Part shown: piece after piece, positions 10,059 to 64,000 of the stretch
How the letters are laid out: every line of letters begins with the position of its first letter
Position numbering within the stretch: the first letter of the stretch is position 1
Assembly (NCBI GenBank): GCA_029212365.1
Contig: JARGOC010000001.1
Span: forward strand, 310,001 to 374,000
Reading direction: 5' to 3'
DNA: 64,000 nucleotides
From: Roseovarius sp.
GTDB taxonomy: Bacteria > Pseudomonadota > Alphaproteobacteria > Rhodobacterales > Rhodobacteraceae
The notes under the pieces: model-generated
Seen by the model: only the letters and a program-made list of their open reading frames with translations
What the model was told of the DNA's origin: nothing
The model's database searches: none
Made by a program: the position numbers and the translations under genes

Positions 10059-11275
10059 TACGCCCCCCTCACCACATCAAGTGTGTCTTGGATCAGGTCC
10101 AGAATACGATCCGTCGCTTCGGCCCCCTGCGAGGCGACATCCCATGCCGCATGTGCCATAATTGCCGCCTGATCCGGGGCAATCAAACTTTGTACAGCCG
10201 CCGCCAGCGTATCAGCATCGCGCACAATCCGCGCGGCGCGGGCTTCGGCAAAGCGTGAATATTCGGATAAATATCGCCGCATGTTGGGACCATACAGGAT
10301 GGCCGAGCCATGTACGGCTGGCTCGTTGGGGTTGCAACCCTCCATCCCGTGCACCAGTGAATGGCCAATGAAGCTGACCGGTGCCAGCCGATACCACAGA
10401 CCCAACTCGCTGCGGCATTCGCCCAGAATGATCTGGGTGGTTTCTTCGGGCATATCGCCTTCGGCCCAGATCACTGTGGGCAGGTTTTCCTGGCTCACTC
10501 TTTGTTGGATCGCCTGCTGATGATCCTTGTTCTGCGGCACAATGATCAACAATGAGCGGTGCGCCGCGCGCCCGACGATGCGTCTTGCGCCCAACACGAT
10601 ATCCAACTCGTCGGGATGCAGGTTGGCGGCCAACCACAAGGGACGCGCTCGCAGGCAAACGGCCAGTTCTTCGCGTTCATTTTCGTTGTAGGGCAAGGGC
10701 ACGGCCTCGGGGCGCAAGGGCGGGGCTTGGGTGATGTCCTCATCTGGCACACCGATCCGGCGCAATACGCGGGCTGTGTCTTCGGATTGCACCTGAATTT
10801 GCGCGAACTTGTCCAACAAAGAGCGCGGCAAATCCGGAAACCAGCGCCAGCCACTGCGCATCAATTGCTCTTCTTCGGCATCCAGCAGAAACAGCGGAAT
10901 GTTGCGACTGTCGGCACAGCTAAGCAAAGCGGGCCGTAGATCTCCGCCCGTCCAGAGGCACAGATCGGGTTTCCAGTGCTCCAAGAACACCTCGGCTCCG
11001 GCCACTGTTTCAGGGGGCAGATCATCGCGCACTATCAGCGCGCTGTCGATGTCGGGCAGGTCAATATCATGCGCCGTCGTCAACAGCATATGCACACCGG
11101 GGCGTTGCTGTGCCAGACGCTCGGCCATTTGGCATAGGGCGGCAGCGCGCGTCGGATCGGTGGCATGACCCCAGATCAGCTCGCCTTTGGGGCGCGCGGT
11201 GGCGGGAGGCGCCGGGGCATAGGTGGCGCGCCGCGCATAGGCCATATAGGCTGCAAGGCTCAGCGAACGCGCCAT
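10058..11275 (-). CDS. waaA: 3-deoxy-D-manno-octulosonic acid transferase
   Basis: Glycosyltransferase of the GT30 family that attaches Kdo to lipid A precursors at the cytoplasmic face of the inner membrane. It has 405 aa. The N-terminus [14 protein letters not shown] is a shortened membrane anchor typical of alphaproteobacterial WaaA; IWGHATDP and [10 protein letters not shown] are in the N-terminal domain, and HPDELDIVL and [10 protein letters not shown] in the C-terminal GT-B half. It is translationally coupled to lpxK. A short in-frame ORF ends one codon upstream of the start. Confidence 0.9.
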
Positions 11276-11278
11276 AGA

Positions 11279-11359
11279 TCAGATCATCGGGGCTTTGAAT
11301 TGACAGTCACCGGGAAGAGCCGGTTCACCGCCAAAGACAGGATTTAGCCGTTGGATCAT
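11279..11359 (-). CDS. Possible 26-codon leader ORF upstream of waaA
   Basis: A short ORF starts at ATG 11359 behind AGGAAGG, a strong ribosome binding site eight bases away, and stops at TGA one codon before the waaA ATG in the same frame. It could be a leader peptide or a small protein; the sequence is not recognised. The strength of the ribosome binding site is what makes it worth listing. It could also be chance. Confidence 0.3.
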   Translation of the reverse strand: MIQRLNPVFGGEPALPGDCQFKAPMI

Positions 11360-11492
11360 AAGAGAACCTTCCTGAAATCATGTAGGCGCGCAGGGTATTC
11401 CTTTGCCCGGTGGGGTCAAGCAGATGCAGGGCTTGACGACAAGGCAGCAAGCGGGCAACCACAATGGCGTTGATATGACGTCAGGTTGTCCG

Positions 11493-12743: not shown

Positions 12744-13222
12744 AGATACCCCTCAAACTCTTTCAAAACACGGGCGTAAACATCACGCTTGAATGGCACG
12801 ATATTGGCTTGCAGCTCGTCGGTGGGCATCCAGCGCCAAGCGGAAAATTCTGGGTGTTGCGTCTGTATGTTCACATCGCCATCATGCCCATGAAACCGCA
12901 GCAAAAACCATTTTTGTTGCTGCCCGCGAAACTGGCCTTTCCACAGGCGTGGCACCAGATCATGCGGCAGATCATATGGCACCCAACCGTCGGTTTGCGC
13001 CTCTACCATGACCAGATCAGCGGTCACGCCGGTTTCCTCCCATAGCTCGCGCAGGGCGGCCTGTTCGGGGTCTTCACCGGGATCAATGCCCCCCTGAGGC
13101 ATCTGCCAGGCCTGCGCCCCACTATCGAGGCGCTGGCCCACAAACACCCGGTTATCGGCATTCACCAACATAACCCCTGCGCAGGGTCGGTAGGGTAGTT
13201 TTGCAATCTCTTCCCGGGTCAT
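12740..13222 (-). CDS. rppH: RNA pyrophosphohydrolase (Nudix)
   Basis: Removes pyrophosphate from the 5' triphosphate of mRNAs, which triggers decay, or hydrolyses dinucleoside polyphosphates (IalA-type). It has 160 aa. The Nudix box GGIDPGE-x7-REL-WEETGV spans about residues 44-66 with all the metal-binding Glu residues. The N-terminal [11 protein letters not shown] and QMPQGGID are typical of RppH. It is the first gene of a two-gene unit. Confidence 0.93.
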
Positions 13223-13453
13223 GCCGGTCTCCTGTAGTCTTTATACATGTGGTCTCTTTTGACCTAGTTCAACCATCCGGGGCAAGGTGAACAACGCCTT
13301 GAATGTGATCCACATGCGAAGGTGTGCCGGAACAACATACAATAAAGTTTCGGGTTTTCGGAACAGAGGCTTAGGAAAACCGAAGGAATAAGAAACATCT
13401 CGCGGCGTCAGCCAATCTGGCCTAAGTTAACATCACAAGGACAAGGTAGCGCG

Positions 13454-16282
13454 ATGACCCAACAGCAGCCCCGGATCAACACCTCACCGAAAGTGTCGGA
13501 TGAGGTCAGGAAAACCACGTGCTATATGTGTGCCTGCCGCTGTGGGATCAACGTGCATATGAAGGATGGAAAGGTGGCCTATATTGAGGGCAACCGCGAT
13601 CATCCCGTCAACAAAGGCGTGCTGTGTGCCAAGGGCAGTGCGGGGATCATGCAGGTGAATGCCCCATCGCGCCTGCGGGCTCCGCTAAAACGGGTTGGCC
13701 CGCGCGGGTCTGGCCAGTTTGAGGAGATCAGCTGGGACGAAGCATTGGAAATGGCCACCGGCTGGCTGGAGCCGATCCGCAATGAAGCCCCTGAAAAACT
13801 GGCGTTTTTTACAGGGCGCGATCAATCACAATCCTTCACCAGCTTCTGGGCACAGAATTTTGGCACTCCTAATTATGCAGCCCATGGCGGGTTTTGTTCG
13901 GTCAATATGGCCGCCGCTGGCATCTACACCATGGGCGGGGCCTTTTGGGAATTTGGCCAGCCGGATTGGGATCACACCAAGTTGTTCATGATCTTTGGCG
14001 TGGCTGAAGATCATGACAGCAATCCCATCAAGATGGGCATAGGCAAGATCAAAGCGCGCGGTGCAAAGGTGATTGGCGTCAACCCGATCCGCTCGGGCTA
14101 TAACGCTGTGGCGGATGATTGGGTTGGCATCACGCCGGGCACGGATGGGTTGTTCATTCTGGCGCTGGTGCACGAGTTGCTGCGCGCCGGGAAAATCGAT
14201 CTGGATTATCTGGCCCGGTACACCAATGCGCCCGTGCTGGTGAACCGCGATTCCAAATCGCCTGAGTACGGGCTGTTCCTGCGCGATGACGATGGCAAGC
14301 CGCTGGTGGTGGATCGTAACACCGGCAAGCTGACGGCGTTTGACACGCCCGGCGTGAAACCCGATTTACATGCCACGCACCGCCATGCGGGCATCACCCA
14401 CAGACCTGTGATGCATCTTTTGGCATCGCGCTATCTGGACAAGAAATACGCCCCAGATACAGTGGCAGACCAATGCGGAATTAAGCCAGAAAAGATCAAA
14501 GCCATCGCCGCCGAAATTGCCCGTGTGGCCTTTGAAGAAGAAATTGTGCTTGAGCGTGAATGGACCGATTTCCGCGGCGAAAAGCACTCGGTCATGAAGG
14601 GTCGGCCGGTCAGCTTCCATTCCATGCGCGGAATTTCAGCGCATTCGAACGGGTTTCAAACCTGCCGGGCACTGCATGTGCTGCAAATCCTTTTGGGCTC
14701 GGTTGAAGTGCCCGGTGGTTTCCGCTTCAAACCGCCCTACCCCAAACCAGTCAGCGCCCACCCGACCCCACATTGCAAAGTGACACCGGACATGCCGCTG
14801 GATGGCCCGCATCTGGGCTTTGTGCGTGGTCCCGAAGACCTCGCGCTCAAGGACGACGGCACGCCTATACGGATCGACAAGGCCTTTACCTGGGAAAATC
14901 CGATGTCATCGCATGGCATGATGCATATGGTCATCAGTAACGCACATGCGGGCGATCCCTATAAGATCGACACGCTGTTTATGTATATGGCGAATATGTC
15001 GTGGAATTCGTCGATGAACACCTCAGGTGTGATCGAGATGCTGACCGACAAGGACGAGGACGGTGAATACAAGATTCCCCATATCATCTACTCGGATGCC
15101 TACAGTTCAGAAATGGTGGCATATGCCGATCTGATCCTACCCGATACGACGTATCTGGAGCGTCACGATTGTATCAGCCTGCTGGATCGCCCGATTTGCG
15201 AGGCCGATGCGGCAGCAGACGCTATCCGCTGGCCGGTGATTGAGCCTGACCGCGATGTGCGCGGTTTCCAGACTGTGCTGGTGCAGCTGGCCAACAAGAT
15301 GAAGTTACCGGGCTTCACCAACGAAGATGGCAGCGCAAAATTCGAAGATTACGCCGACTATATCACCAACCACGAACGCAAGCCGGGGATTGGACCACTT
15401 GCGGGTTGGCGACTGGGAAAAAATGGGCTGACTCATGGCCGCGGTGCGCCAAATGGCAGTCAGATCCAAAGCTATATCGCCAATGGTGGGTTCTTTGTTA
15501 AGCACATTCCACAAGAGGCCTCGTATATGAAGCCGTGGAATATGGACTATCAGAACTGGGCCGTTGAAATGGGCATCTTTGATAGCCCTCAGCCTTACGT
15601 CTTTGACCTTTATGTTGAAACCATGCGTCATTTTCAACTGGCGGCTGAAGGGCACGGCGAACACCAGCCCCCAGATCACTTGCGCGAGCGGATCAAATCC
15701 ACGATGGACCCGCTGCCGATCTGGTATCCTCCAATTGAAGATACGCATGTCGATCTGGAGGAATACCCGGTTCACGCGCTGACCCAACGTCCGATGGCGA
15801 TGTATCACAGCTGGGGCTCGCAAAATGCCTGGTTAAGGCAGATCCACGGACACAACCCGCTCTATCTTCCGACCAAACTGTGGGAAATGCACAGCTTTGG
15901 CGAAGGCGATTGGGCGCGTGTATCGTCTGTTCATGGTGAAATTACTATACCAGTGGCGCATATGGCGGCGCTGAACGAAAACACAGTGTGGACCTGGAAC
16001 GCGATCGGCAAACGCAAAGGGGCCTGGGCGCTGAAAGAGGACGCGCCCGAAGCCACCAAAGGGTTCTTGTTGAACCATCTGATTCACGAGCTTTTGCCCC
16101 CCAAAGGCGATGGATTACGCTGGTCAAATTCGGACCCAATCACCGGGCAAGCTGCGTGGTTTGATCTACGGGTGAAGATTGAGAAAGTGGACGCCCCGGC
16201 AGAAAGCCAGCCAGAAATGCCACCCATTCAATCACCCGTGGGCACTGGCCCAGACGAACTGACGTGGAAGGTGGGACAATGA
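13454..16282 (+). CDS. soeA: Molybdopterin oxidoreductase catalytic subunit, probable sulfite dehydrogenase SoeA
   Basis: Catalytic subunit of a DMSO-reductase-family complex, 942 aa, with no Tat signal, so probably cytoplasmic-facing. The N-terminal [4Fe-4S] site has C23-x2-C26-x3-C30-x27-C58, and Cys148 in GGFCSVNM is the likely molybdenum ligand. Together with the ferredoxin-like and DmsC-like subunits that follow, the size and lack of a Tat signal match the cytoplasmic, quinone-reducing sulfite dehydrogenase SoeABC known from purple bacteria and Roseobacters, which oxidises sulfite made from organosulfonates or thiosulfate. The ribosome binding site is AAGG seven bases before ATG. Other substrates (polysulfide, thiosulfate) cannot be excluded. 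Confidence 0.8.
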   Translation: MTQQQPRINTSPKVSDEVRKTTCYMCACRCGINVHMKDGKVAYIEGNRDHPVNKGVLCAKGSAGIMQVNAPSRLRAPLKRVGPRGSGQFEEISWDEALEMATGWLEPIRNEAPEKLAFFTGRDQSQSFTSFWAQNFGTPNYAAHGGFCSVNMAAAGIYTMGGAFWEFGQPDWDHTKLFMIFGVAEDHDSNPIKMGIGKIKARGAKVIGVNPIRSGYNAVADDWVGITPGTDGLFILALVHELLRAGKIDLDYLARYTNAPVLVNRDSKSPEYGLFLRDDDGKPLVVDRNTGKLTAFDTPGVKPDLHATHRHAGITHRPVMHLLASRYLDKKYAPDTVADQCGIKPEKIKAIAAEIARVAFEEEIVLEREWTDFRGEKHSVMKGRPVSFHSMRGISAHSNGFQTCRALHVLQILLGSVEVPGGFRFKPPYPKPVSAHPTPHCKVTPDMPLDGPHLGFVRGPEDLALKDDGTPIRIDKAFTWENPMSSHGMMHMVISNAHAGDPYKIDTLFMYMANMSWNSSMNTSGVIEMLTDKDEDGEYKIPHIIYSDAYSSEMVAYADLILPDTTYLERHDCISLLDRPICEADAAADAIRWPVIEPDRDVRGFQTVLVQLANKMKLPGFTNEDGSAKFEDYADYITNHERKPGIGPLAGWRLGKNGLTHGRGAPNGSQIQSYIANGGFFVKHIPQEASYMKPWNMDYQNWAVEMGIFDSPQPYVFDLYVETMRHFQLAAEGHGEHQPPDHLRERIKSTMDPLPIWYPPIEDTHVDLEEYPVHALTQRPMAMYHSWGSQNAWLRQIHGHNPLYLPTKLWEMHSFGEGDWARVSSVHGEITIPVAHMAALNENTVWTWNAIGKRKGAWALKEDAPEATKGFLLNHLIHELLPPKGDGLRWSNSDPITGQAAWFDLRVKIEKVDAPAESQPEMPPIQSPVGTGPDELTWKVGQ

Positions 16283-50753: not shown

Positions 50754-50829
50754 GGGCCGTTAGCTCAGTTGGTAGAGCAACTGACTTTTAATCAGTAGGT
50801 CGATGGTTCGAACCCATCACGGCTCACCA
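50754..50829 (+). tRNA. tRNA-Lys (anticodon UUU), probable attachment site
   Basis: 76-nt tRNA with encoded CCA end. The acceptor arm GGGCCGT pairs with ACGGCTC (one G-T), the D-arm is AGCTCAGTTGGTAGAGC, the anticodon loop ACTTTTAAT carries TTT, and the T-arm has GGTTCGAACCC. The integrase gene starts 141 bp downstream in the same direction, the common layout for an element integrated at a tRNA 3' end. A second copy of the 3' end was not found in the remaining window. Confidence 0.96.
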
Positions 50830-50969: not shown

Positions 50970-52205
50970 ATGCCCCATATCAAGTTCACAGACTCGACGC
51001 TCAAGAAGCTGTCGGCCACGAAAACAACATGGTTCACGGACCCCACGGTCAAAGGATTGCGCCTCTGCGTGACGAAAGGCGGTGTCAAAACGTGGTACGT
51101 CAACAAGTGGGACCCCACATCGCAGAAGACTCGGTCGGTCAAATTGGCCCAATGGGCGACCAAAGCCACACACTGCCGTTGGGCAAAGGATCAGGTTGGC
51201 AAAGTCGCGCATGACATAACTACAGGCAATGTGCAGACGCGCGATGAGCACGAAGCAGAGCAGGCCACATTGGGCGTCCCTACGTTTGGTGATGCTCTGG
51301 AACAATACATCGAACACCGCACACAGCCGCGCGCATCTGGAAAGGCTCAGATGAAGCCGGGAACGGCGTATGACTATCGCAACACATTTTCCAATCATCT
51401 GGTTCGTTGGGCCGATGTGCCCGTGAACGAATTGCCGATTCTTGAGATCAATCAGCATCTGAACAATTTGCAGCTTGAGAAGGCGCACGCGGCCAACCAT
51501 GCGAGTTGTGTTGCAGGGGCCACTGTGCGGTTCATCAACAAGCTGTGCGCCCTTGCGCTGCCGATTCCGACGCTGCTCGACAACACCAAAATTCGGTCGC
51601 GCGTCCAGACAGGCAAGCTCGACATGTCGGTGCCGTGGTCGGATCGGTGGGACGAAATTCAGGTGGTCAAAAACGAGCATATAAGGCTGTGCTGGATGAT
51701 CACTTGGTACACGGGCTTTCGCCACGAGGACAGCTTGCGGCCTTTGACGTGGAACCAAGTCGATCTGGACGAAGGCACGGTTACATTCGGCAGGTTGAAG
51801 AAGCAGGAAGATGCGCGGGAGATTGCCATTGCGGACGATGTGGTCAGGCTGTTTGAGCGGCTTTGGGAAATCCGTTTCGATGATTGCGATTGGGTGTTTC
51901 CATCGCGTCGGGAGGTGAACGGGCGGCGTGGTCACTTGGATGTATTGGACCGTTTGCCCCTGACGCGCGCGGGCGATCTGCGGCATTTGTGGATGACAAC
52001 GGCGCGAGAGGTTGCCCCCCGACACGTTCACAGGTGGCTGGCACAGCAGACCATGACCGACGATGATCTGCGTATGCTCGGGCATTACGGCCAGCCAAGC
52101 CATGAGGAACAAAAGCGGTCGGCCAATGCGATTGCGTCGGCGATCAACGTGCAATTGGGCGCGCCACCTTCTTCCGTTATTGAACTGAAACGAAAGCGCG
52201 CCTAA
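50970..52205 (+). CDS. Tyrosine-recombinase-type integrase
   Basis: 411-aa integrase of the element. The N-terminal arm-binding region (residues 5-60, with VKGLRLCVTKGGVKTWYV) is of the DUF4102/phage integrase type, and the catalytic part carries TGFRHEDSLRPLTW (Arg251), DLRHLW (Arg338) and MLGHYG (His372). The HxxR motif has Gly in place of His, and no Tyr is found at the usual 9-10 residues after His372; only Tyr373 is nearby. It may use a displaced nucleophile or be impaired. Start ATG has AAGGA upstream. Confidence 0.85.
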   Translation: MPHIKFTDSTLKKLSATKTTWFTDPTVKGLRLCVTKGGVKTWYVNKWDPTSQKTRSVKLAQWATKATHCRWAKDQVGKVAHDITTGNVQTRDEHEAEQATLGVPTFGDALEQYIEHRTQPRASGKAQMKPGTAYDYRNTFSNHLVRWADVPVNELPILEINQHLNNLQLEKAHAANHASCVAGATVRFINKLCALALPIPTLLDNTKIRSRVQTGKLDMSVPWSDRWDEIQVVKNEHIRLCWMITWYTGFRHEDSLRPLTWNQVDLDEGTVTFGRLKKQEDAREIAIADDVVRLFERLWEIRFDDCDWVFPSRREVNGRRGHLDVLDRLPLTRAGDLRHLWMTTAREVAPRHVHRWLAQQTMTDDDLRMLGHYGQPSHEEQKRSANAIASAINVQLGAPPSSVIELKRKRA

Positions 52206-52341
52206 ATATTGACGACATACGCCTCCATGCCCGGGCGTAGTGACCTGACCGGGACTGGAAGGCCGAACGCGTGAGCGACGGCTTTTGTCGTCAGGAGCAG
52301 GAGACGCGTCGGTCATAGGCCTCATCATGAGGAATATGCCT

Positions 52342-52575
52342 ATGACTATCGACGAGCTTTCAGAGCAGCTAAAATCTCTGCACAATGACCTGATACGGTC
52401 ACACCCACCCCAAGTAATGACCTGCCGCGAGGCCGCGCAATTTCTTGCAGTGACAGATGAAACGTTGTTTCGTTGGCGCAAGGATGGTGTTGGTCCGTCA
52501 TACTCCCAGCCGAATTCTCGGTTAATTCGATACCTGTATGACGACCTTGTTGCTTGGATGAAGGAGTGTCGGTGA
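52342..52575 (+). CDS. AlpA/excisionase-like HTH protein
   Basis: 77-aa protein with a MerR-type/HTH_17 fold: VMTCREAAQFLAVTDETLFRWRKDGVGP (split about residues 31-58), then RYLYDDLVAWM. Such proteins direct excision or activate element genes. The start at 52342 has GAGGA at the right distance; ATG 52327 and 52336 are alternatives. Its stop overlaps the next start (TGATG). Confidence 0.78.
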   Translation: MTIDELSEQLKSLHNDLIRSHPPQVMTCREAAQFLAVTDETLFRWRKDGVGPSYSQPNSRLIRYLYDDLVAWMKECR

Positions 52576-53816
52576 TGGGTGGAAACGCAATAAGAACGCA
52601 AAACACTGACGTGGAACGCGCCAAGTTTCATCCCAGCCACACGAAACGGCTGCTTTCGTTCAATATCACGAAGCAGCGTGTGGCTGATCTGTGCAACCAA
52701 GAATGGAAAGAAAATCCATTTGAGAAAGAGGTGAATTACAGCTCTTGGCACCGCGCGATGGACGGGCATGAAGTGTTTGTGGGCGTAATCTCGCAGCTTG
52801 AGGGGCTCTATGAGGCGCAAAAGGCGCACCCAAAGAAATTCCTGCCTCAAGACGATCCCGGCGAAAACCTTCGTGAGTGGATGGGACAAATTGCAAAGGC
52901 AACGTGGTGGCATAAGACCTTGGAACTTGAAATGCCCCTCAACTCACTCAACAGTTGGTTCTCAGGCCGCGTTTCAAAGACACGGCCAGAATTGCTCGAG
53001 AAAGTGAATGACTGGTGGGCACGCGTAAAAACTGCCGCAGACGAGGCGGAGCGATATTCGGCGGTGCGAGAGCGTGATCGCTATCGCGACGGCAGTTTTG
53101 ACAATGGCAACGCTCGCTCGTGGGATTCATGGTGCAAGGACTTGCTCGAAGATGGTCTGTCGGTCGAGGAGTTGCGGGAGCGGTACATCGCGGAGGCGTT
53201 GATGCATGACCAGCATCACTTGAACCTGATCGACCTGTCCAACCCGGATACACCACTGACCATAGGTTACGTTTCCAAATCCCAAGAAGAATGGCGCGGC
53301 CAGCAATTGGACGAGCTTCTGGAGCAAGGGTTTCCAAGAGCTATGTCGCGAACGCCACCTGACTTTGATCCAGAGCCATTCATCCGTCACGGTCAGTGGG
53401 GGGATCGCCGGAACGAGGAATGCCCGAAAGACATCAATTCGCGCCTATACGGTAAACATTATCGAGAGCGTTGCGTCAGGTTTTGGGATGTTAAAAAGCG
53501 GTGCGTAAGTGTTAATTCTGAGATCGTCGAAGTGTCGGTTGATGGCGAGAATTGGCGTCCGGCGAATGAGACCGAGAAAAAGGGTTGGGACAACGGGATA
53601 TTCTACTGGGAGCAAGCGCTGATCGAAACAGGTGAACCTCCTGAGAATTCCTACACCCGCGAACTTAACGAGGCGAAGCTTAAGGAAAAGAAAGCGCGCC
53701 GAGAGTTTGAGTCCAATTTGGATGTGGTTCGCGATTCTGGTTTGCAGTCGGCGTTGATGACTGCCGAACGCGAATTGAAAATCGCATTCGACAACACTCA
53801 CGGCCAGTACGACTAA
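52575..53816 (+). CDS. Unknown Trp-rich mobile-element protein
   Basis: 413-aa protein with no family I recognise. It is unusually rich in Trp and charged residues (EWKEN, SSWHRAM, REWMGQ, TWWHKT, NSWFSGR, NDWWARV, RSWDSW), and the C-terminal 80 residues look like a charged coiled coil (LKEKKARREFESNL). The start overlaps the xis-like stop (TGATG) with AAGGAG upstream, so the two are translated together. The position of replication or regulation genes in phage satellites makes that a possible role; no motif confirms it. Confidence 0.7.
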   Translation: MGGNAIRTQNTDVERAKFHPSHTKRLLSFNITKQRVADLCNQEWKENPFEKEVNYSSWHRAMDGHEVFVGVISQLEGLYEAQKAHPKKFLPQDDPGENLREWMGQIAKATWWHKTLELEMPLNSLNSWFSGRVSKTRPELLEKVNDWWARVKTAADEAERYSAVRERDRYRDGSFDNGNARSWDSWCKDLLEDGLSVEELRERYIAEALMHDQHHLNLIDLSNPDTPLTIGYVSKSQEEWRGQQLDELLEQGFPRAMSRTPPDFDPEPFIRHGQWGDRRNEECPKDINSRLYGKHYRERCVRFWDVKKRCVSVNSEIVEVSVDGENWRPANETEKKGWDNGIFYWEQALIETGEPPENSYTRELNEAKLKEKKARREFESNLDVVRDSGLQSALMTAERELKIAFDNTHGQYD

Positions 53817-54741: not shown

Positions 54742-54821
54742 CTATTGTGCGCGCATCAGTCGGCGGGTCGCCGCAACACCCGACATTGGGCCCGCCGACA
54801 CCAAACAGAGAAAGCAATCGA

Positions 54822-55097
54822 ATGCCCATCAAGACCGTCGCCATCAAACCGACACCCCACGGTTCCCGCATCGTCGCCGAAGACATTCACACGGCATACC
54901 ATCTGGACTTGCCCATCGCCGAAGAAGACTTGCGCAACCTGATTGTCGCCGCTGCAAAAGCAGACGACCTGCACCCACGCGCCGAACTCATGGGCGTGCT
55001 TGCTGATCGAACTGAAAACGGAGTCCGCGTCCGCAACGTCGTCAACACATCGCACTTTGACATTCCGTGGCAGTTCATCGTGAGGGGCATCGAATGA
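54822..55097 (+). CDS. Small protein opening the packaging module
   Basis: 91-aa protein, not recognised. It begins MPIKTVAIKPTPHGSRIV, is acidic, and contains LRNLIVAAAKADDLHPRAEL. Its stop overlaps the portal start (ATGA). It could be a head-assembly helper or a regulator. A 15-bp upstream extension is not supported by a ribosome binding site. Confidence 0.65.
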   Translation: MPIKTVAIKPTPHGSRIVAEDIHTAYHLDLPIAEEDLRNLIVAAAKADDLHPRAELMGVLADRTENGVRVRNVVNTSHFDIPWQFIVRGIE

Positions 55098-56488
55098 CAA
55101 AGATCAACCATCGCACCTATCAGGAGCAACGGCAGGCCTACGACAAAATCCGCGATGTGGTTGCGGGCGAAGACCGGCTCAAAAACGCTGGCTCCCAATA
55201 CCTTCCACAGCCCGAGGGTATGACCTCGACGCAATACAGCCGATATGTCCAAGGGTCATCGTTTTATGCCGTTGCCGAGCGCACGCTCCGGGGCATGGTA
55301 GGCTCTGTCACGCGCAACGTGCCAATTTTGGAATTGCCTGATCGGATCGCGTCGATGCGCGATGCCGCAACGTTCGAGGGGCACAGCCTCGACGTTCTTT
55401 TGGAAGACACGCTGCGCGAAGTCTTGTCCATTGGCCGCTACGCGATGGTTCTCGACTACCCGACGGAGGGCGCGGCTCCGGGTTCGGCTCCGTTCATTTC
55501 GACATTCAACGCGGAATCCATTCTGGACTGGAAAGAGGAACTGGTTGGCGGTCGTCAAAAACTGACGCGGCTGCGCCTGCACGAAGACAACGACGATCTG
55601 GACGATGGCGTTGAACAACACCTTCTTCTGACACTTGAACCGGCCTACACCGTCCGCCGCTTCCATGTTTCGCGCAAGCGCAACGGCCCCGAGATTGCGA
55701 CCACTGCGGAAGTTCAAATCGGCGAAGATATCGTGCCGACCATTGACGGTGCGCCGCTGTTTGACATTCCGGCGGTCGTTGTCAGCCCCTACAATCTGAA
55801 AGCCGATGTAGAGAAGCCGCCGTTTCTTGATCTCGTCAACGTCAACTTGGCCCATTGGCGCGTTAGTGCGGACTACTACTGGAGCCTTTATTTGACCTCG
55901 CAACCGACGCCTTGGGTGGCTGGTTCGCTGAACGAAAAGAACATGCCGAGGCAAATCGGCTCGGGCGCATTTTGGGTTTTGCCTCAAGGTGCGACCGCTG
56001 GCATGTTGGAATTTACGGGCGCGGGCATCGCTGCCCAAAAGACCGCCTTGGATGATCTAACCGCTCAAATGGCGACATTGGGCGCGCGCATGGTCTACGA
56101 TGGCAAAGGCCGCAACGAGACCACCGACACCGCGAAATTGCGCACGCGTAGCGAACTGTCCCTCCTGCATTCGTCCGTGAATATGGTTGAGGCTGCAATC
56201 CTCAAGCTTCTGCGCCTTGCCGCTGAATGGACGCAAACCGGAACTCAAGATCAAGTCTCTCTGAAACTGCATCGCGACTTCATCACGGCCCAGATGGACC
56301 CGGCTGTTTTAACCGCGCTGATCAAGGCGTGGCAGGCTGGTGCAATCTCCCACGACACGCTGCTGATGAACTTGAAGAAGGGCGAGTTGATGGACGTCAA
56401 TCGCGCCTTGGATGACGAGCGCGATCTGATCGAAGAAGATGAAAACGTGCTGCCGCTCTCCACATTCCCGCAAGCTGGAAACGTATGA
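55094..56488 (+). CDS. DUF4055 phage portal-like protein
   Basis: 464-aa protein of the DUF4055 family, regarded as phage portal proteins that form the DNA channel at one capsid vertex. Typical blocks are YAVAERTLRGMVGSVTRNVP near the N-terminus, LREVLSIGRYAMVLDYP, YYWSLYLTSQPTPWVAG and a C-terminal helix region with LKLHRDFITAQMDP. ATG 55094 is chosen because it overlaps the previous stop. It is the only clear capsid-associated gene in the element. Confidence 0.82.
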   Translation: MTKINHRTYQEQRQAYDKIRDVVAGEDRLKNAGSQYLPQPEGMTSTQYSRYVQGSSFYAVAERTLRGMVGSVTRNVPILELPDRIASMRDAATFEGHSLDVLLEDTLREVLSIGRYAMVLDYPTEGAAPGSAPFISTFNAESILDWKEELVGGRQKLTRLRLHEDNDDLDDGVEQHLLLTLEPAYTVRRFHVSRKRNGPEIATTAEVQIGEDIVPTIDGAPLFDIPAVVVSPYNLKADVEKPPFLDLVNVNLAHWRVSADYYWSLYLTSQPTPWVAGSLNEKNMPRQIGSGAFWVLPQGATAGMLEFTGAGIAAQKTALDDLTAQMATLGARMVYDGKGRNETTDTAKLRTRSELSLLHSSVNMVEAAILKLLRLAAEWTQTGTQDQVSLKLHRDFITAQMDPAVLTALIKAWQAGAISHDTLLMNLKKGELMDVNRALDDERDLIEEDENVLPLSTFPQAGNV

Positions 56489-57132
56489 TGGCAATAGATC
56501 CCGACCACGGCATACATCACGCGCGAACCATGCCCGAGGAGTTGCTGATCTTCTCGGTCTTGTCCCGCGCCATTCTTGATCTGTTTGGCCCTGTCGGATT
56601 GACGTCGACCAAAGAGGAGGCGCAGCAGGCAAAGTCGGACGCGCTATTGTTCTTGACCAAAAAGTCGGGCGCGTGGGCAAAGCGGCGCAATGATCTCTGC
56701 GACGCCATCGGATTCGACGGTGACAATGTGCGCGACCGGGTCATTCGCGTTCTCGAAGGCGATAGCACAGCGCTTGCCACATATGACGGGCGACGGGAAT
56801 TGACCCAGGTCGCGCAGGCGCGCGAGCTTTGGGAACAAGAGCAATCCCGGTCCGAACGCCGGAAATTAGCGCCCCAGCCAACCCCCAAACCCCAGCCTCG
56901 ACCGCGACACGCAATTACCCGCTATGCCGACGTGCGCCGCCATATCATGCCGCTGCTGACACAACCCCGCACCTTCAAGGATTTGATCATGGCGACCAAC
57001 GGTGACGTGTCTGACACGACGATCCGCGAGGTTCTGCGAAACGCCGTCGCGAAGGGCGAGGTGGTGAACAACGACAACACCTATCTTCTTGTTTCTGGAC
57101 CTGAAACTGCGGTTGCGGCAGCGCCCGGATAG
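56485..57132 (+). CDS. Unknown phage-module protein with C-terminal winged-helix-like region
   Basis: 215-aa protein overlapping the portal stop (ATGATG). An N-terminal helical half (LLIFSVLSRAILDLFGPVG, LTKKSGAWAKRRNDLCDAIG) is followed by a Pro/Gln-rich linker near 137-150 (LAPQPTPKPQPRPRH) and a C-terminal part with LLTQPRTFKDLIMATNGDVSDTTIREVL that could be a winged helix. No family was recognised. Its place within the packaging operon suggests a DNA-binding or regulatory partner. Confidence 0.62.
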   Translation: MMAIDPDHGIHHARTMPEELLIFSVLSRAILDLFGPVGLTSTKEEAQQAKSDALLFLTKKSGAWAKRRNDLCDAIGFDGDNVRDRVIRVLEGDSTALATYDGRRELTQVAQARELWEQEQSRSERRKLAPQPTPKPQPRPRHAITRYADVRRHIMPLLTQPRTFKDLIMATNGDVSDTTIREVLRNAVAKGEVVNNDNTYLLVSGPETAVAAAPG

Positions 57133-57235: not shown

Positions 57236-57646
57236 ATGGCCGACGACAACGACAAGCAAGCAGCAGCGCTGATCGCAGCCCTTGCACCCAAGATCGCAGA
57301 AGCAATCATTCCCCAGCTCACCGAACAGGTCGAGACCCAAGTGAAGGGCCTCAAGGACAAGAACGAAGAGCTTTTGGATAAGCTTGCGAATATGAAAAAG
57401 GACGCGGAGATTGAGGAGGCTGGCAAAGCATCAGCAGCCCTCGCCGCCAAGACCAAAAATCTGATCGACGCCGCCGACAAGCAGCGCATTGCCCGGCTTG
57501 ACGGAAACAACATGTACCAAGGCCGCAAGGCCGGTGATGCCATCAAGATCACGCGTTCTGACGCGCGCAGCGTTTCAGCCTATCGCGATGCGAAAGCACT
57601 GGCCGAGAAAGAAGGCGTGCCGCTTGAGATCGTTGCTGACGAATGA
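57236..57646 (+). CDS. Coiled-coil phage-module protein (scaffold-like)
   Basis: 136-aa protein, mostly helical and highly charged: IAALAPKIAEAIIPQLTEQV and GLKDKNEELLDKLANMKKDAEIEE form a coiled coil over residues 12-75. It has the size and composition of a scaffolding protein, but no capsid gene is nearby. Expression may be gated by the hairpin over its ribosome binding site. It overlaps the next gene by 4 bp (ATGA). Confidence 0.65.
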   Translation: MADDNDKQAAALIAALAPKIAEAIIPQLTEQVETQVKGLKDKNEELLDKLANMKKDAEIEEAGKASAALAAKTKNLIDAADKQRIARLDGNNMYQGRKAGDAIKITRSDARSVSAYRDAKALAEKEGVPLEIVADE

Positions 57647-58230
57647 CACAGGGAAAACGCCCCCATAAAATGATGATGCTCCCGGACGCAAAACGGGAGC
57701 ATTACACGCGCGAGATCGTGCTTGGGCGCGTGTCGATGTTCCAAGCGGGCAAAGACCTTGGCATGTCGGATACATCGGTTGCGCGGTACATTTCGCAACT
57801 GCCCGAAGAGGACAAACTGGCGATCCTTGCGACAGCAATGCACGACGCCAAAGTCAAGACCGCCATGCAGCACGCGGCGATTGTCAACGAGTTCGGAGAA
57901 GACACCGACAAAGATTTGAAGTGGGTCTTGCGCGAACTCAAAAGCCTGCTTGAAGGCGCGAAGGGCGATGAGGATCGCACAATGCAGTTGGGCGCACTCA
58001 AAGAGTTGCGCCAGAGCCTCATGGCCTTGGCCGACCTCCACGGCAAGCTAAACAAGAAGATGGATATCCATCTGAACCTGAACGAGTCGCCACAGTTCAT
58101 TCAACTTCGACAAATCATCCTGAAAGTGCTCAACAACCACCCAGCCGCCAAGCACGATTTCCTGAATGAGATGGACGCTATGGGAGTTATCAAAGAGCCC
58201 GTCCTTGTCGATGACCGGAGGCCCACATGA
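57643..58230 (+). CDS. Small-terminase-like protein
   Basis: 195-aa protein immediately preceding the large-terminase genes. The N-terminal HTH (EHYTREIVLGRVSMFQAGKDLGMSDTSVARYISQL, split about residues 20-54) would bind the packaging site, and the central KDLKWVLRELKSLLEGAKGDEDRTMQLGALKELRQSLMALADLHGKL region gives an oligomerising helical core. This fits the DNA-recognition subunit TerS. The assignment rests on fold and position. Confidence 0.62.
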   Translation: MTQGKRPHKMMMLPDAKREHYTREIVLGRVSMFQAGKDLGMSDTSVARYISQLPEEDKLAILATAMHDAKVKTAMQHAAIVNEFGEDTDKDLKWVLRELKSLLEGAKGDEDRTMQLGALKELRQSLMALADLHGKLNKKMDIHLNLNESPQFIQLRQIILKVLNNHPAAKHDFLNEMDAMGVIKEPVLVDDRRPT

Positions 58231-58424
58231 TGCCGACACGCAGCGCAAAATTATCTATCGAGATCGTCAACCGGCTTGAGAACACCGATCTTGAGAGCCC
58301 AAGCGCCGTGCGTGAGGCGATGAACGGGGCGTCACCAATCGTCGTCCAAATCCTGTCCGAGTTGGCCGCGCGGCAAATGCTGAAACCCGCGACACGCTGG
58401 CCCGGTCAGCCTGACCGCTCATGA
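58227..58424 (+). CDS. Small unknown protein between terminase genes
   Basis: 65-aa protein whose ATG overlaps the TerS-like stop and whose own stop (TGA) overlaps the large-terminase start. The tight chain of overlaps shows that it is a real gene. VQILSELAARQMLKPATRWP could be a winged-helix fragment. No function assigned. Confidence 0.6.
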   Translation: MMPTRSAKLSIEIVNRLENTDLESPSAVREAMNGASPIVVQILSELAARQMLKPATRWPGQPDRS

Positions 58425-59197
58425 TCCACGACGCCGCCCTCCATTCGTTTCTACAAGGGTTGACAGTCTCGCTCGATCCCATCGAACGATTCCGTCTTGC
58501 CATCGGTGAGCCAGATCCTTGGCAGCAAACGCTGCTGCAAACCGATCCGCGTTTAAACGAGGAAGACCGAATGGTCCTCGCTCTGTGCGGGCGGCAGTCG
58601 GGCAAATCGACGTCGGCGGGTGGACTTGGGTATGACGATTTCTCGGTTGGCAAAACGGTTATCCTGACCGCGCCCAGCCTTCGGCAATCAACTGAGTTAT
58701 TTCGGCGCATTCTGGAATTCAAAAACACCGATCCTTTCTGCCCGCCTATTGTGCGCCAGACGCAAACAGAGCTTGAGGCACACCCATCGCACGGCGGGCG
58801 GATCATTGTCGTCCCGGCAACCGATCAGGCACGCGGCATGACAGCGGACACCATCATCGCAGACGAGGCATGTTTCCTCGACGACGACGCCCTGACGGCT
58901 TTTTTCCCGATGCGGAAGGAGACTGGGCGCATCTTTCTTCTGTCCACGCCGAACCTGCGACAGGGTTATTTCTACGAGACTTGGACGAGCAACAAACGGG
59001 TGAAGCGCATCACTGCGCGATCCATCGACATACCGCGCCGCGCAGCCCAAGTCGCATTCGACAAGGCAACAATGTCCGACACCACATTCCGGCGCGAACA
59101 CTTATGTGAGTTTGTCGGCAGCGGCACGCCTCTGATCTCGTGGGAAACGCTCGAAAACGCGTCCAACAAGAACGTCCAAGCATTGGAAATCAAATGA
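58421..59197 (+). CDS. Large terminase, ATPase half (separate gene)
   Basis: 258-aa DNA-packaging motor domain. Walker A CGRQSGKST at 56-64, Walker B TIIADEACF at 144-152 with the catalytic Glu, and coupling motif LLSTPN at 173-178. A full-length TerL continues into a nuclease domain, but here the frame stops after residue 258 and the nuclease is encoded in the next frame starting at an ATGA overlap. It would drive DNA into a procapsid. Confidence 0.85.
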   Translation: MIHDAALHSFLQGLTVSLDPIERFRLAIGEPDPWQQTLLQTDPRLNEEDRMVLALCGRQSGKSTSAGGLGYDDFSVGKTVILTAPSLRQSTELFRRILEFKNTDPFCPPIVRQTQTELEAHPSHGGRIIVVPATDQARGMTADTIIADEACFLDDDALTAFFPMRKETGRIFLLSTPNLRQGYFYETWTSNKRVKRITARSIDIPRRAAQVAFDKATMSDTTFRREHLCEFVGSGTPLISWETLENASNKNVQALEIK

Positions 59198-59913
59198 CCT
59201 CCGACAACCCACCAAAGTATGAACATCTGAAAGACGGGCGCGTTGTGCTGCCATCAAACGCTGATCCCGCAGCCTTTGGAACCGTTGTTCACGGCTGGGT
59301 TCGCCATCATGTCGGCATGGACCTTGGACGCAATGATCCATCGGCCATTGTGGTGGTCAAGGACACTTGCTACCCGCAGTTCACAGGCCGGGGGTTCGAA
59401 CAGGAGTTGGGACCGCGCAAATGCACCGTCGTGTTCCAAGAATCCATCCAGCTTTACAGCTACACCGACCTTGCCGATTTCCTCGCGCGGCGTCTGAACC
59501 AAATCCCGCACTGGTCCCTCACCATCGACGCGTCAGGTCTTGGCGCACCGTTCTCATCGACCTTGGACAATGCGGGCATTGAACACCACGCCGTTGTAAT
59601 GACCGCAGGCGCGAACATGTCCCGCAATGGCAAGGACGTGAAGATTGCAAAAACGATGCTCCTCGAAAATATGGCCGTCGGGCTTGAGACCGGCGCGCTC
59701 ACTGTCGCCCACAACCTCGACGGCAAACAAGACCTGCTCAACGAGATTGCGTCTTTCGAATTGGCATCCACATCGGCAGGCAACCTCGTCCTGCAAGGGG
59801 GCGGCAAAGGCCATCACGCCGACCGCGCGATTGCAACTGCTTTAGCATATCTCGACGCAACCCATCTGGACACATACACAGGCGGGCAACACCGCCTGAC
59901 AGGTTGGGCTTAA
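59194..59913 (+). CDS. Large terminase, nuclease half (separate gene)
   Basis: 239-aa RNase-H-fold nuclease that would cut concatemeric DNA at packaging start and end. The three acidic positions are visible: Asp43 in GMDLGRNDPSA, Asp112 in LTIDASGLG and Asp210 in HHADRAIATALAYL. The start at 59194 overlaps the ATPase stop (ATGA, -1 frame), so it is likely made by coupled re-initiation. No heptameric slip site was seen at the junction. Confidence 0.83.
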   Translation: MTSDNPPKYEHLKDGRVVLPSNADPAAFGTVVHGWVRHHVGMDLGRNDPSAIVVVKDTCYPQFTGRGFEQELGPRKCTVVFQESIQLYSYTDLADFLARRLNQIPHWSLTIDASGLGAPFSSTLDNAGIEHHAVVMTAGANMSRNGKDVKIAKTMLLENMAVGLETGALTVAHNLDGKQDLLNEIASFELASTSAGNLVLQGGGKGHHADRAIATALAYLDATHLDTYTGGQHRLTGWA

Positions 59914-60480: not shown

Positions 60481-60828
60481 ATGTTGAAACTCAATACTCT
60501 GAACGCTGAATTCTCGTTCGAAATGTCTAACGAACGCGAAGGGCGCAATCTGAATGCTCGAGATGTTCTCGAAGCTGCAACTGACGTTATGCGTAGTGAT
60601 CCCTCATTCTTGCGGAGACGCAAAGATGGTGGACTCTATAAGCAAAGCCGGTCTGACATATGGCGTTACGTCGGTTCGCCAGATACGATGATCGTCGGTT
60701 CGACTGAAAGCTGGGTTGTGATCATCACTGCAATTGGCGGTCATCGCTATGAAGCTCGCGCATTCAAGCCAAACCTTCACATTTGCCCACTGCAAAGCTT
60801 CCGAGCGCTTGAAAAACAAGCTGCGTAA
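60481..60828 (+). CDS. Unknown accessory protein
   Basis: 115-aa protein with a beta-rich second half (WRYVGSPDTMIVGSTESWVVIITAIGG). Divergent from the acidic-protein gene and followed by a strong terminator. The family was not recognised. Confidence 0.6.
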   Translation: MLKLNTLNAEFSFEMSNEREGRNLNARDVLEAATDVMRSDPSFLRRRKDGGLYKQSRSDIWRYVGSPDTMIVGSTESWVVIITAIGGHRYEARAFKPNLHICPLQSFRALEKQAA

Positions 60829-61069: not shown

Positions 61070-61687
61070 TTGGCTGAAAACAACGTGGGGCAGAGCATGC
61101 CGATTCCGAATCAGGCCGTCGTCAAACCGATCATTGACGAAATCCGCGACGAGATCGTCGCTGCCATTCATGAGGCATGGGACGACTGGATGGCCAGCGA
61201 CTATGTCGCGGTCTGGCGCTGTAAGCGCAGTCGTGCGAATTTTGTTTGGGAACAGATCATAGACCGGGCGCACGCCGCGCTCCTGAGTCTCGACAATGTT
61301 CACTTCATAGAGGCCACTGAAACGATGAAGTTCCTGATCCACGATCAGGTTCTTTTCCGGTTCAAGAAAGCTGACGATGCTGGCCGCACCGCGAACGTGG
61401 CCACGCAGATGGCAATGGCCTTCCACGATCACGATCAAGACTTGTTCGGACTGCCGGAAGTCCAGCGCGTCGAGGTCGTCTACAAACTGAACAAGCTGGA
61501 GACGGCGATTGCGGACATCTGCGTTGTTGCGCGTGATGGCGATGCCGTGACCTGGGAATACAGCCTGCTCGACGCCGGGGATGTGGTAGCGCCCCTGCCC
61601 ATGCCGGAGCCGGAACCTGCACGGCCCGCCGCCAAGATCGTCAAGCTCAAAGTCGTATCCGACGAGCGCAAGAAGCGCGATAAGTAA
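61070..61687 (+). CDS. Partner of the XRE-ImmA/IrrE protein, possible toxin
   Basis: 205-aa cytoplasmic protein, mainly helical, with an acidic/Pro linker (PLPMPEPEPARPAAK) near the end and a basic tail. Its stop overlaps the next start (TAATG), so the two are co-translated. In some toxin-antitoxin and defence units the partner of an XRE-ImmA/IrrE antitoxin is such an unknown protein. TTG 61070 gives the longest product; ATG 61097 is an alternative start. Confidence 0.58.
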   Translation: MAENNVGQSMPIPNQAVVKPIIDEIRDEIVAAIHEAWDDWMASDYVAVWRCKRSRANFVWEQIIDRAHAALLSLDNVHFIEATETMKFLIHDQVLFRFKKADDAGRTANVATQMAMAFHDHDQDLFGLPEVQRVEVVYKLNKLETAIADICVVARDGDAVTWEYSLLDAGDVVAPLPMPEPEPARPAAKIVKLKVVSDERKKRDK

Positions 61688-62757
61688 TGTCTACAGGGTT
61701 CAATCAGGACCTGCTGCGGATTGCGCGGCAGGCACGAGGATGGAGTCAGACCGAGCTTTCGCGTCGGTCTGGTGTGTCGCAGGCGAACTTGTCGAAGCTG
61801 GAAAACGGGTTGATCGGACCCACTGACGAGGTGATGGGTGACGTGAGTGAAGCACTCGGTTTCCCGGTCGATTTCTTCTTTCAGAATGACCGCGTAATCG
61901 GTCTGCCCATGAGCGTTCAATACCGGAAACGTGCCAGCGTTGGGCAAAAGGCGATTGAGCGTCTTGAAGCCGAGTTGAATATCAGAATCTTGCATATTCG
62001 CCGTCTTCTTGATGCTGCCGAATTGGAGCCTGAGCTATCTCTCCCTCGATTGGATGTTGATGAATTTGGAGGTGATCCGGAACGCATAGCCGGTCTCGTT
62101 CGACGAACATGGCTCGTCCCAACTGGCCCAATTCGAGAGTTGGTGTCATGGGTTGAGCGGGCGGGTTGCATTGTAATTCACTGTGACTTCGCGGCTTTGA
62201 AGGTGGATGGCTTCACAGTTCAAATCCCCGATATGCCGCCGTGTATCTTCCTGAACCGAAACATGCCGTCAGATCGGCAACGGTTCAGTCTTGCCCACGA
62301 ACTCGGTCATGTTGTCATGCACCAAATTCCCTCACCCGAAATGGAAAGCGAGGCTGACTCATTCGCGTCCGCGATGTTGATGCCCGCAGGAGACATTCGG
62401 CCGCAGCTTTCCGGTCGCCGCCTGACCGTTCAGCGGCTCGCGAGTTTGAAGCCAGTTTGGCGGGTCTCCATGGCTGCACTTCTCTACCGCTCCAAGACAG
62501 TTGGCGCTGTTACAGCAAACCAAAGCCAATACCTTTGGCGACAAATGAGTTCGATGGGCTACCGCCGAGTCGAGCCTCCCGAACTTGATTTCCCAATGGA
62601 GGAACCGACAGTTCTGCCCGAGATCATCAGGTTGCATCTTGAAGACCTCGGCTACGGTTTGTCGGAACTTGCAGAGGCACTGCGTTCAACTGAGGGTGAC
62701 TTTCGAGCGCTTCATCCAATTCCCGGTGCAACCAACCATCTTAGAGTGGTCAAGTAG
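61687..62757 (+). CDS. XRE HTH plus ImmA/IrrE metallopeptidase
   Basis: 356-aa fused regulator. An XRE-type HTH covers about residues 6-65 (LSRRSGVSQANLSKLENG), and an ImmA/IrrE peptidase domain carries HELGH at 204-208, with Glu222 in ESEAD as the probable third zinc ligand. In mobile elements such proteins cleave or act as repressors (ImmR-ImmA) or as antitoxins. It forms a coupled two-gene unit with the upstream ORF. Confidence 0.83.
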   Translation: MSTGFNQDLLRIARQARGWSQTELSRRSGVSQANLSKLENGLIGPTDEVMGDVSEALGFPVDFFFQNDRVIGLPMSVQYRKRASVGQKAIERLEAELNIRILHIRRLLDAAELEPELSLPRLDVDEFGGDPERIAGLVRRTWLVPTGPIRELVSWVERAGCIVIHCDFAALKVDGFTVQIPDMPPCIFLNRNMPSDRQRFSLAHELGHVVMHQIPSPEMESEADSFASAMLMPAGDIRPQLSGRRLTVQRLASLKPVWRVSMAALLYRSKTVGAVTANQSQYLWRQMSSMGYRRVEPPELDFPMEEPTVLPEIIRLHLEDLGYGLSELAEALRSTEGDFRALHPIPGATNHLRVVK

Positions 62758-62799
62758 CCTGAAAGTGCTCAGCGGCTTTCTTCAGAGTGTGGAGTTTTG

Positions 62800-63582
62800 A
62801 TGCAACCAAACTTGCTGCAACATTTTGGCATCACTGGATACTCTGTGAAATCAGCGATCCAAGTTGGCTCAATGTTTGTTCGAGCAAAGGAACTCCAAAT
62901 ACACCTCGGGCGTTATGCTCAAAGATTTGTCAATTGCACTGGCGATGACGTTTATCAATTTCAACACTTAGGAACCGCGACGGGCATAAAGTATCGGGGG
63001 CGCCATTTTGTCATTTCGACAGATCATCAACGAAGGCATGGAGAGCTGGGAGAACTCGGAATTGTTTGCGACCCGGGACAATCAGTCATTACTCCAAGCG
63101 CTATGTGGACGCTGAATTTACCTAGCGAAGTTGAACGGGAAGATATGCACGACTTTGTTGTGTACGAGTTTGAGCCTGAAAAATATCCAGATAGAAATAT
63201 TTCGTCCCAGTTTTTTGAAATTGGAAAAGATAGCGGTGTCAAAGCCTCAGTTGGGAAAGTCGCTTTGAATTTAGGATACCCGACACGATTGCAGAACATT
63301 GACTACTATGAAGGCAGTGTTGATCTAATAGTGGTGTCGAATTTTGTAAAGCTCATCGAAAAAACTTCATCCGAAAATGTCTTTTTGTTTCAAACAGTTT
63401 CGGATGACAGGTTTTTTGAAGACGGTACTAGCGGATCTCCTGTTTTTGAAGTTGTTCACGATGACGCTGGGTTTCGTGTCGTTTGGTTGGGGATTGTTGT
63501 TCGTGGAGGCGATCAGTCGCGCTTTGGTCGCGTCATCAGCGCTGACTTCATTGTCCAGCAGCTGGAAGATAATATTCTATAG
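62800..63582 (+). CDS. Trypsin-like serine protease domain protein
   Basis: 260-aa protein. GTSGSPVF near the C-terminus is the nucleophile loop of chymotrypsin-fold proteases, with a likely catalytic His in HFVISTDHQRR and an acidic residue downstream in HDFVVYEF. There is no signal peptide, so it acts in the cytoplasm. ATG 62800 has GGAG upstream. Composition is clearly AT-richer than the core. It could be a protease effector of a defence unit; this is inferred from place and fold. Confidence 0.62.
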   Translation: MQPNLLQHFGITGYSVKSAIQVGSMFVRAKELQIHLGRYAQRFVNCTGDDVYQFQHLGTATGIKYRGRHFVISTDHQRRHGELGELGIVCDPGQSVITPSAMWTLNLPSEVEREDMHDFVVYEFEPEKYPDRNISSQFFEIGKDSGVKASVGKVALNLGYPTRLQNIDYYEGSVDLIVVSNFVKLIEKTSSENVFLFQTVSDDRFFEDGTSGSPVFEVVHDDAGFRVVWLGIVVRGGDQSRFGRVISADFIVQQLEDNIL

Positions 63583-63815: not shown

Positions 63816-64000
63816 CTAACAGCCAAATTCCCGTAGTTCAGAGATGAGCTTCTGCCGCGCTGCTTTCACATCGTCGCCGTTAGTGCTCGAACGTCGTACG
63901 CCTTCTGAACGTTCTGTGTTCTCATTTTGTGTAACTGCTTGATCGGACACAGCCTTCGAGTCGAAGACAAACAGGAATTCAGGTTGCTGTCTTCGCTTTT
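63816..64000 (-). CDS. C-terminal end of an unknown protein (cut by window edge)
   Basis: An open minus-strand frame enters from the right edge and ends at TAG (63816-63818), giving 60 residues ending in KAARQKLISELREFGC, preceded by EFLFVFDSKAVSDQ. The length and absence of stops, as well as the charged helical end, suggest a real gene. The family was not recognised. Confidence 0.45.
   Translation of the reverse strand, partial: KRRQQPEFLFVFDSKAVSDQAVTQNENTERSEGVRRSSTNGDDVKAARQKLISELREFGC

Follow-up and report, generated by a model that had tools for sequence, protein, structure and literature searches.

The large terminase (TerL), which drives phage DNA packaging, is normally a single protein in which an ATPase and a nuclease are joined. 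In a 64,000-nucleotide stretch of Roseovarius sp. DNA (GCA_029212365.1, contig JARGOC010000001.1, positions 310,001 to 374,000, forward strand; hereafter the window), these two activities appeared to be encoded by separate genes, which raised the question of whether the split is real and, if so, what kind of element would make its packaging motor in two pieces. The first-pass annotation placed the pair at 58421-59913, with Walker A, Walker B and coupling motifs in the first open reading frame, three acidic nuclease positions in the second, and an ATGA overlap into the -1 frame, and it read this as a functional split rather than decay. What it described is present in the sequence: window positions 58421-59197 encode a 258-aa ATPase half (TerN), positions 59194-59913 encode a 239-aa RNase H-like nuclease half (TerC), and the two overlap by ATGA at 59194-59197, with TerC in the -1 frame.

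To assess the identity of each half, we compared both with protein families and solved structures. TerN matched Pfam Terminase_6N at 25.3 bits against a cut-off of 22, and PHROG 7579 ("terminase large subunit") at an E value of 6.9e-42 over positions 3-237 of 239, covering this family almost end to end. A profile built from 20 chosen TerN sequences matched the solved TerL ATPase chain 4zni (E 1.1e-22). In those 20 sequences R58, G61 and K62 (Walker A) and E149 were invariant, and Q59, D148 and S175-T176-P177 nearly so. TerC itself had no Pfam hit and matched PHROG 27743 ("unknown function"; E 2.6e-30), but 9 of 20 chosen TerC sequences matched Terminase_6C (best E 2.1e-9), and the profile of these 20 matched the solved TerL nuclease chains 5tge, 5m1q and 5m1f (E 1e-16 to 2.5e-16). 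An AlphaFold2 model of TerC (mean pLDDT 78.9) found G20c TerL nuclease structures first (best 5m1f, E 1.4e-8), followed by T4 gp17, D6E TerL and the SPP1 nuclease. D43, D112 and D210 were invariant in the 20 chosen TerC sequences. The pair therefore carries the ATPase motifs and the three acidic nuclease residues of a large terminase, though not in one chain; translocation of DNA at a portal and binding of TerN to TerC were not assayed. Alignment to full-length TerL had been proposed as a check on the split, and when both products were aligned with the one-chain TerL of Thermus phage Riverbug and Meiothermus phage MMP17, which share the catalytic residues of both halves, the split fell between the two domains.

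A sequencing error at the junction, or relatives that all had a single continuous frame, had been named as outcomes that would overturn the observation, so we next asked whether other genomes share the split. A search of genome contigs with TerN gave 14 loci, 13 of them recorded as Rhodobacterales. Together with the window and plasmid pSC52_1, whose TerN is 98% identical, these make 16 near loci (individual loci are numbered with L and genomes with G below), and in 16 of 16 the halves lie in different frames, with TerC always in -1. Eleven have the ATGA overlap; L010 has GTGA, L013 a one-base TGATG overlap, L016 and L018 a 13-base overlap and L017 a long overlap, with 13- and 16-base overlaps both occurring among the junctions. 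In L011, TerC (10774-11490) has an in-frame stop although the element keeps its att repeats and the other genes searched for, the contig of L012 ends within TerC, and L021 starts within TerN. Twelve more distant loci, whose TerN is 30-56% identical to that of the window, are also split, 10 in the -1 and 2 in the +1 frame. The halves are again neighbouring genes on the Salinibacter ruber plasmids pSR11, pSR14 and pSR31 and on a 16-kb Streptomyces plasmid, so the split also occurs on plasmids of other phyla. Plasmid pSR31 carries one ATPase gene followed by two consecutive nuclease genes (L051: 5178-5780 and 5798-6436), both with the three acidic residues by eye. Two nuclease-half genes also follow a TerN in genome G312 (L082, 8587-9815 on the reverse complement), which lies outside the chosen set of 20, and the first of these reads GVSVG where the first catalytic Asp is expected. 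Because the same split is present in separately deposited genomes, a sequencing or assembly error is refuted, although a single-base error would give a frame change; raw reads across the junction could not be examined.

We then estimated how common the nuclease half is. With the TerC profile A4, 22 of 292 genomes of the order, 8 of 385 of the class and 12 of 299 of the phylum matched at E <= 0.001, and with a narrower profile, A2, 13 of 194 relatives matched; the genome of the window is counted in each, and the samples overlap. In the class and phylum searches the open frames fell into two groups, 201-288 aa for the strong matches (5 of 385 and 10 of 299 genomes) and 490-583 aa for six weak matches (3 of 9 and 3 of 13 matches, respectively), which are one-chain TerL by length. 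Of the 23 matches listed for the order, one lies in a 453-aa frame, one has an internal stop and several are fragments. A short nuclease frame does not by itself show that an ATPase gene is beside it, since at two nuclease-only places, G479 (L081) and G350 (L083), no ATPase was found within 700 bases. One chromosome (G051, contig C1) holds four TerC copies, at 667337 and within 4188669-4221928, three of them within 33 kb, as if elements were stacked at one site.

Both halves look under purifying selection. In 8 of 8 pairs tested, out of 15 near loci, dN/dS against the window was 0.03-0.09 for TerN and 0.06-0.13 for TerC, with dS near saturation in some. Given the same split point in independent genomes, the conserved catalytic residues and the low dN/dS, the interpretation of a functional split rather than decay is supported. 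A single origin of the split was rejected for TerN (AU p 0.009) but not for TerC (p 0.37). The TerN tree puts the one-chain Riverbug and MMP17 proteins among the split ones, so the state has changed at least twice there; several branches are long, and two splits, or one split and a re-fusion in the Thermus phages, both remain.

What the first-pass annotation did not include was the context. A tRNA-Lys gene ends at 50829, and its last 46 bases recur exactly 1.8 kb beyond the window on the same contig, bounding an integrated element of 15.0 kb that is not a complete prophage. The features of this element, in window coordinates and with predicted proteins named by length, are as follows.

50754-50829 (+), tRNA-Lys(TTT); its last 46 bases (50784-50829) are attL, repeated exactly at 65796-65841 (attR), outside the window
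50970-52205 (+), tyrosine integrase, 411 aa (Pfam Phage_integrase, E 1.7e-7; PHROG 1, E 1.2e-22)
52285-52575 (+), AlpA/excisionase-like HTH protein, 96 aa, start uncertain (PHROG 66, excisionase and regulator, E 3.1e-7)
52554-53816 (+), p420, unknown, no family below E 0.01; it takes the place held by a primase-like gene in some relatives (an AEP primase in L046), so by inference perhaps a replication protein
54747-55097 (+), p116, small protein of 116 aa, unknown, no PHROG or Pfam hit
55067-56488 (+), portal protein (DUF4055), 473 aa as called, although the start may be 27 bases further in, as annotated in pSC52_1 (Pfam DUF4055, E 6.3e-45; PHROG 145 portal, E 3.3e-111)
56485-57132 (+), p215, unknown, with relatives in 12 of 15 and 13 of 16 loci
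57236-57646 (+), p136, putative mini-scaffold
57643-58230 (+), p195, putative small terminase (TerS), with an HTH-like N part and long helices
58227-58424 (+), p65, unknown, found in 6 of 15 near loci
58421-59197 (+), TerN, stand-alone ATPase half of TerL, 258 aa
59194-59913 (+), TerC, stand-alone RNase H-like nuclease half of TerL, 239 aa
59924-60397 (-), variable region, 157-aa ORF, unknown, no hit in PHROGs, Pfam or PADLOC
60481-60828 (+), variable region, 115-aa ORF, unknown, no hit in PHROGs or PADLOC
61070-61687 (+), variable region, 205-aa ORF, PHROG 15813 (unknown; E 6.6e-35)
61687-62757 (+), HTH plus M78 peptidase (ImmA/IrrE-like), called RmrA by PADLOC
62797-63582 (+), 261-aa ORF with no family hit; a GTSGSPVF stretch looks trypsin-like by eye only
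63816-64000 (-), part of a dCTP-deaminase-type anti-phage gene that runs to 65711, outside the window (PADLOC dCTPase, E 1.5e-159)

Relatives carry other cargo: an MTase-like ORF by eye in L040, a patatin plus DncV-like pair, as in CBASS, in L080, and a PDC-S28 candidate in L002. The variable region of L041 carries an ORF that looks like a reverse transcriptase by eye (12872-14437). Beyond attR, the last ~65 bases of the contig (C25; 66150-66215 in window numbering) recur in several related genomes, some at contig ends, which suggests a repeat. To look for an unoccupied integration site, we searched same-genus genomes and found that left-flank homology in many of them stops near the tRNA end (about position 700 of the query); none of the matches examined crosses the join, so no clean empty site was found.

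To determine whether the element could build its own particle, we searched 19 of its ORFs in the window against PHROGs and found no coat, protease, head or tail family below E 0.05 other than portal and TerL. Eight proteins of Dinoroseobacter phage vB_DshS-R5C (Nanhaivirus) and three of Riverbug were also compared with 54 loci, and only the R5C portal matched (27 of 54); R5C coat, head morphogenesis, tail, TerL and the whole scaffold matched 0 of 54 at E <= 1e-3. The element thus lacks a full set of recognised virion genes, although p215, p420 and small ORFs are unassigned and a novel coat protein is not excluded. The role of p195 as TerS rests on its place and an HTH-like predicted N part, plus a weak TerS hit for the gene in that place in Streptomyces (L006; E 8.6e-4). 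Its model is poor (pLDDT 61.7), Foldseek gave nothing at E <= 0.001, and PHROGs gave no TerS for its 11 relatives, and p195 is not shown to be a TerS. The plasmid relatives share TerN and TerC only, as far as tested, so that they are satellites is a guess, and pSR11 has a gene with tape-measure-like hits (E 8.7e-9).

We also examined the total length of the elements. For this, we cut loci at about 10 kb on either side and sought repeats within 13 kb before and 11 kb after TerC. Of 49 loci examined, L034 and L089 were dropped as second copies of L019 and L015 (L035 and L088 also repeat L009 and L010), 20 elements had long exact repeats, and 4 (L013, L016, L022 and L040) were added from tRNA fragments picked out by hand; the others had no repeat that we accepted, because of contig ends, IS elements or short repeats. 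The resulting 24 att-bounded elements, the window's included, have precise ends formed by tRNA direct repeats and measure 13,497-15,926 bases (mean 14,812, SD 622). The parts before and after the start of TerC vary more (SD 936 and 866) and compensate each other (r = -0.76; r = -0.84 for the first 20 elements), and 0 of 20,000 shuffles gave so small a spread. The elements are related, so this overall p is optimistic; within the portal clade p was 0.011 and within the rest 0.013. Such a pattern is what packing into a shell of fixed size would give.

We next looked for links to a possible helper. The portal is 51% identical to that of R5C, 49% to that of Pan1 and 48% to that of R26L. PHROGs gave only weak, scattered hits for p136 (best 0.0072), but direct comparison by tblastn matched about 30 residues at its end to the very end of the R5C scaffolding protein at E 0.012, and we tested this weak match with profiles. 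A tail profile from 12 satellite loci ranked the R5C scaffolding protein and the corresponding gene before the coat gene in R26L (annotated hypothetical) and Pan1 (annotated minor structural protein) as the top 3 of 3,256 segments from nine phage loci, at E 1.5e-11 to 9.6e-10, with the next match at E 1.2 (0.59 for the whole protein). In the other direction, a profile made only from the three phage tails found an ORF upstream of TerN, on its strand, in 43 of 53 loci (four are second copies), 39 of them at i-E below 0.01, the portal-less clade included. The tail was not found in L003, L006, L021 (truncated), L050, L051, L081, L082, L083, L092 and L093, the plasmids among them. Only the tail profiles are strong, and the helper is a guess from two genes. 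In a search for a helper prophage, an R5C-type coat had no match in 59 of 60 genomes, the own one included, while G012 has a distant one (27% identical, E 1.1e-14). Three scans of IMG/VR with short patterns gave one related contig, L023, and so no virome support. The C-terminal homology resembles the arrangement in SaPI1, in which CpmB and the 80alpha scaffold bind coat through a shared C-terminal helix-and-hook (PMC5644958).

We are fairly confident that the best reading of these observations is a two-chain large terminase belonging to a family of phage satellites that bring their own portal, mini-scaffold and motor and borrow coat and tail from a Nanhaivirus-like helper. The analysis itself shows that the ATPase and nuclease halves are separate, conserved, overlapping genes in a 15-kb element bounded by tRNA repeats, and that this element carries a portal, a small protein with the tail of a phage scaffolding protein, and no recognised coat gene. 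The rest is inference, made without induction, packaging, virion, infection or transduction data: when a Nanhaivirus-like phage infects, the element would excise and replicate, p136 would bind helper coat and, with the element's portal replacing or joining the helper's, enter the helper's procapsids (p136 perhaps making them smaller, as CpmB does for SaPI1), p195 would select the element's DNA, and TerN and TerC, perhaps translationally coupled through their overlap, would meet on the portal and act together as translocase and cutting nuclease. Where no portal was recognised, the member would use the helper's portal or an unrecognised one. The portal and scaffold-tail homologies point toward genes that act on helper assembly, but with no test of their action that question is left undecided.

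Other explanations are less likely. A programmed -1 frameshift joining the frames into one TerL would fit the -1 frame of TerC in 16 of 16 near loci, yet no X XXY YYZ heptamer occurs in register near the end of TerN in the 13 of 16 near junctions tested (L012, L017 and L021 were left out), the junction varies, the frame is +1 in L038, L039 and pSR11, and pSR31 has one TerN and two TerC genes; we consider it very unlikely, and two proteins are expected. A prophage remnant that lost its head and tail genes, with the TerL break as an early step of decay, would explain why coat and tail genes are not recognised and why L011 has a stop inside TerC. It is also very unlikely, given the similar gene order and the same split in many genomes, the exact att repeats, the near-constant total length with compensating parts, and the low dN/dS in both halves. 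A complete small virus or phage-plasmid with an unrecognised coat protein is unlikely but somewhat harder to dismiss, since several ORFs have no family and related plasmids have large unassigned genes, one of them that with tape-measure-like hits. Against it, PHROGs gave no head or tail family below E 0.05 other than portal and TerL among the 19 window ORFs searched, and the scaffold tail resembles that of phages whose coat is absent here.

The element was compared with several described systems. Single-chain TerL proteins of Riverbug, MMP17 and MMP7 are the best-ranked phage matches of the ATPase half (34% and 33% to the window TerN; 50-52% to the pSR11 TerN); those of Riverbug and MMP17 are continuous frames of 417 and 415 aa next to annotated head genes, while MMP7 was compared through this ranking only. 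SaPI and PICI satellites with CpmB are about 15 kb long, carry an integrase and cargo, and have a small protein sharing the C-terminal coat-binding tail of a phage scaffold, but SaPIs use the large terminase and portal of the helper, and this element encodes its own; sequence relation to CpmB was not tested. PICIs have an integrase, an AlpA- or Stl-type regulator and TerS, with helper TerL; here an integrase and an AlpA-like HTH are present, TerS is not proven and the element has its own TerL, which leaves membership unsettled. The elements treated in PMC10690885 encode their own portal and large terminase, but also a coat protein, and cf-PICIs a protease and connectors, none of which was recognised here, so the element does not fit the definition of a cf-PICI by its own major capsid protein and head protease; the word "split" does not occur in that paper. 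PLE satellites likewise encode a scaffold (TcaP) that remodels helper capsids (PMC10945586). R5C, in contrast, is a 78-kb phage with its own one-chain 501-aa TerL. Literature searches, limited to open-access papers and thus missing most subscription ones, found no description of a split TerL or of such satellites; the related papers retrieved mention terminase genes on Salinibacter plasmids (PMC6060240), plasmid satellites of Vibrio (PMC13230959) and another marine element (PMC12324425).

A bolder reading, which we regard as possible but tentative, is that these elements are a distinct, widespread family of satellites carrying a modular packaging apparatus of their own (portal, mini-scaffold with the helper's coat-binding tail, and two-chain motor) and taking only coat and tail. 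In this view the split is adaptive, because the nuclease can be swapped, duplicated or regulated apart from the ATPase, as the two nuclease genes of pSR31 and of G312 would illustrate. The split may also allow escape from host sensors of the Avs type, which recognise TerL, an idea we did not test.

TerL motors are studied as one chain in which ATPase and nuclease must be coordinated, and a natural two-chain TerL lets that coordination be tested by mixing and omitting subunits. The finding also suggests a function for PHROG 27743, a family now listed as unknown that appears to be a stand-alone TerL nuclease. Finally, the element points to a satellite strategy between PICIs, which use the helper's motor, and cf-PICIs, which have their own capsid, with a candidate helper in a cultured pair, Dinoroseobacter shibae and phage R5C.
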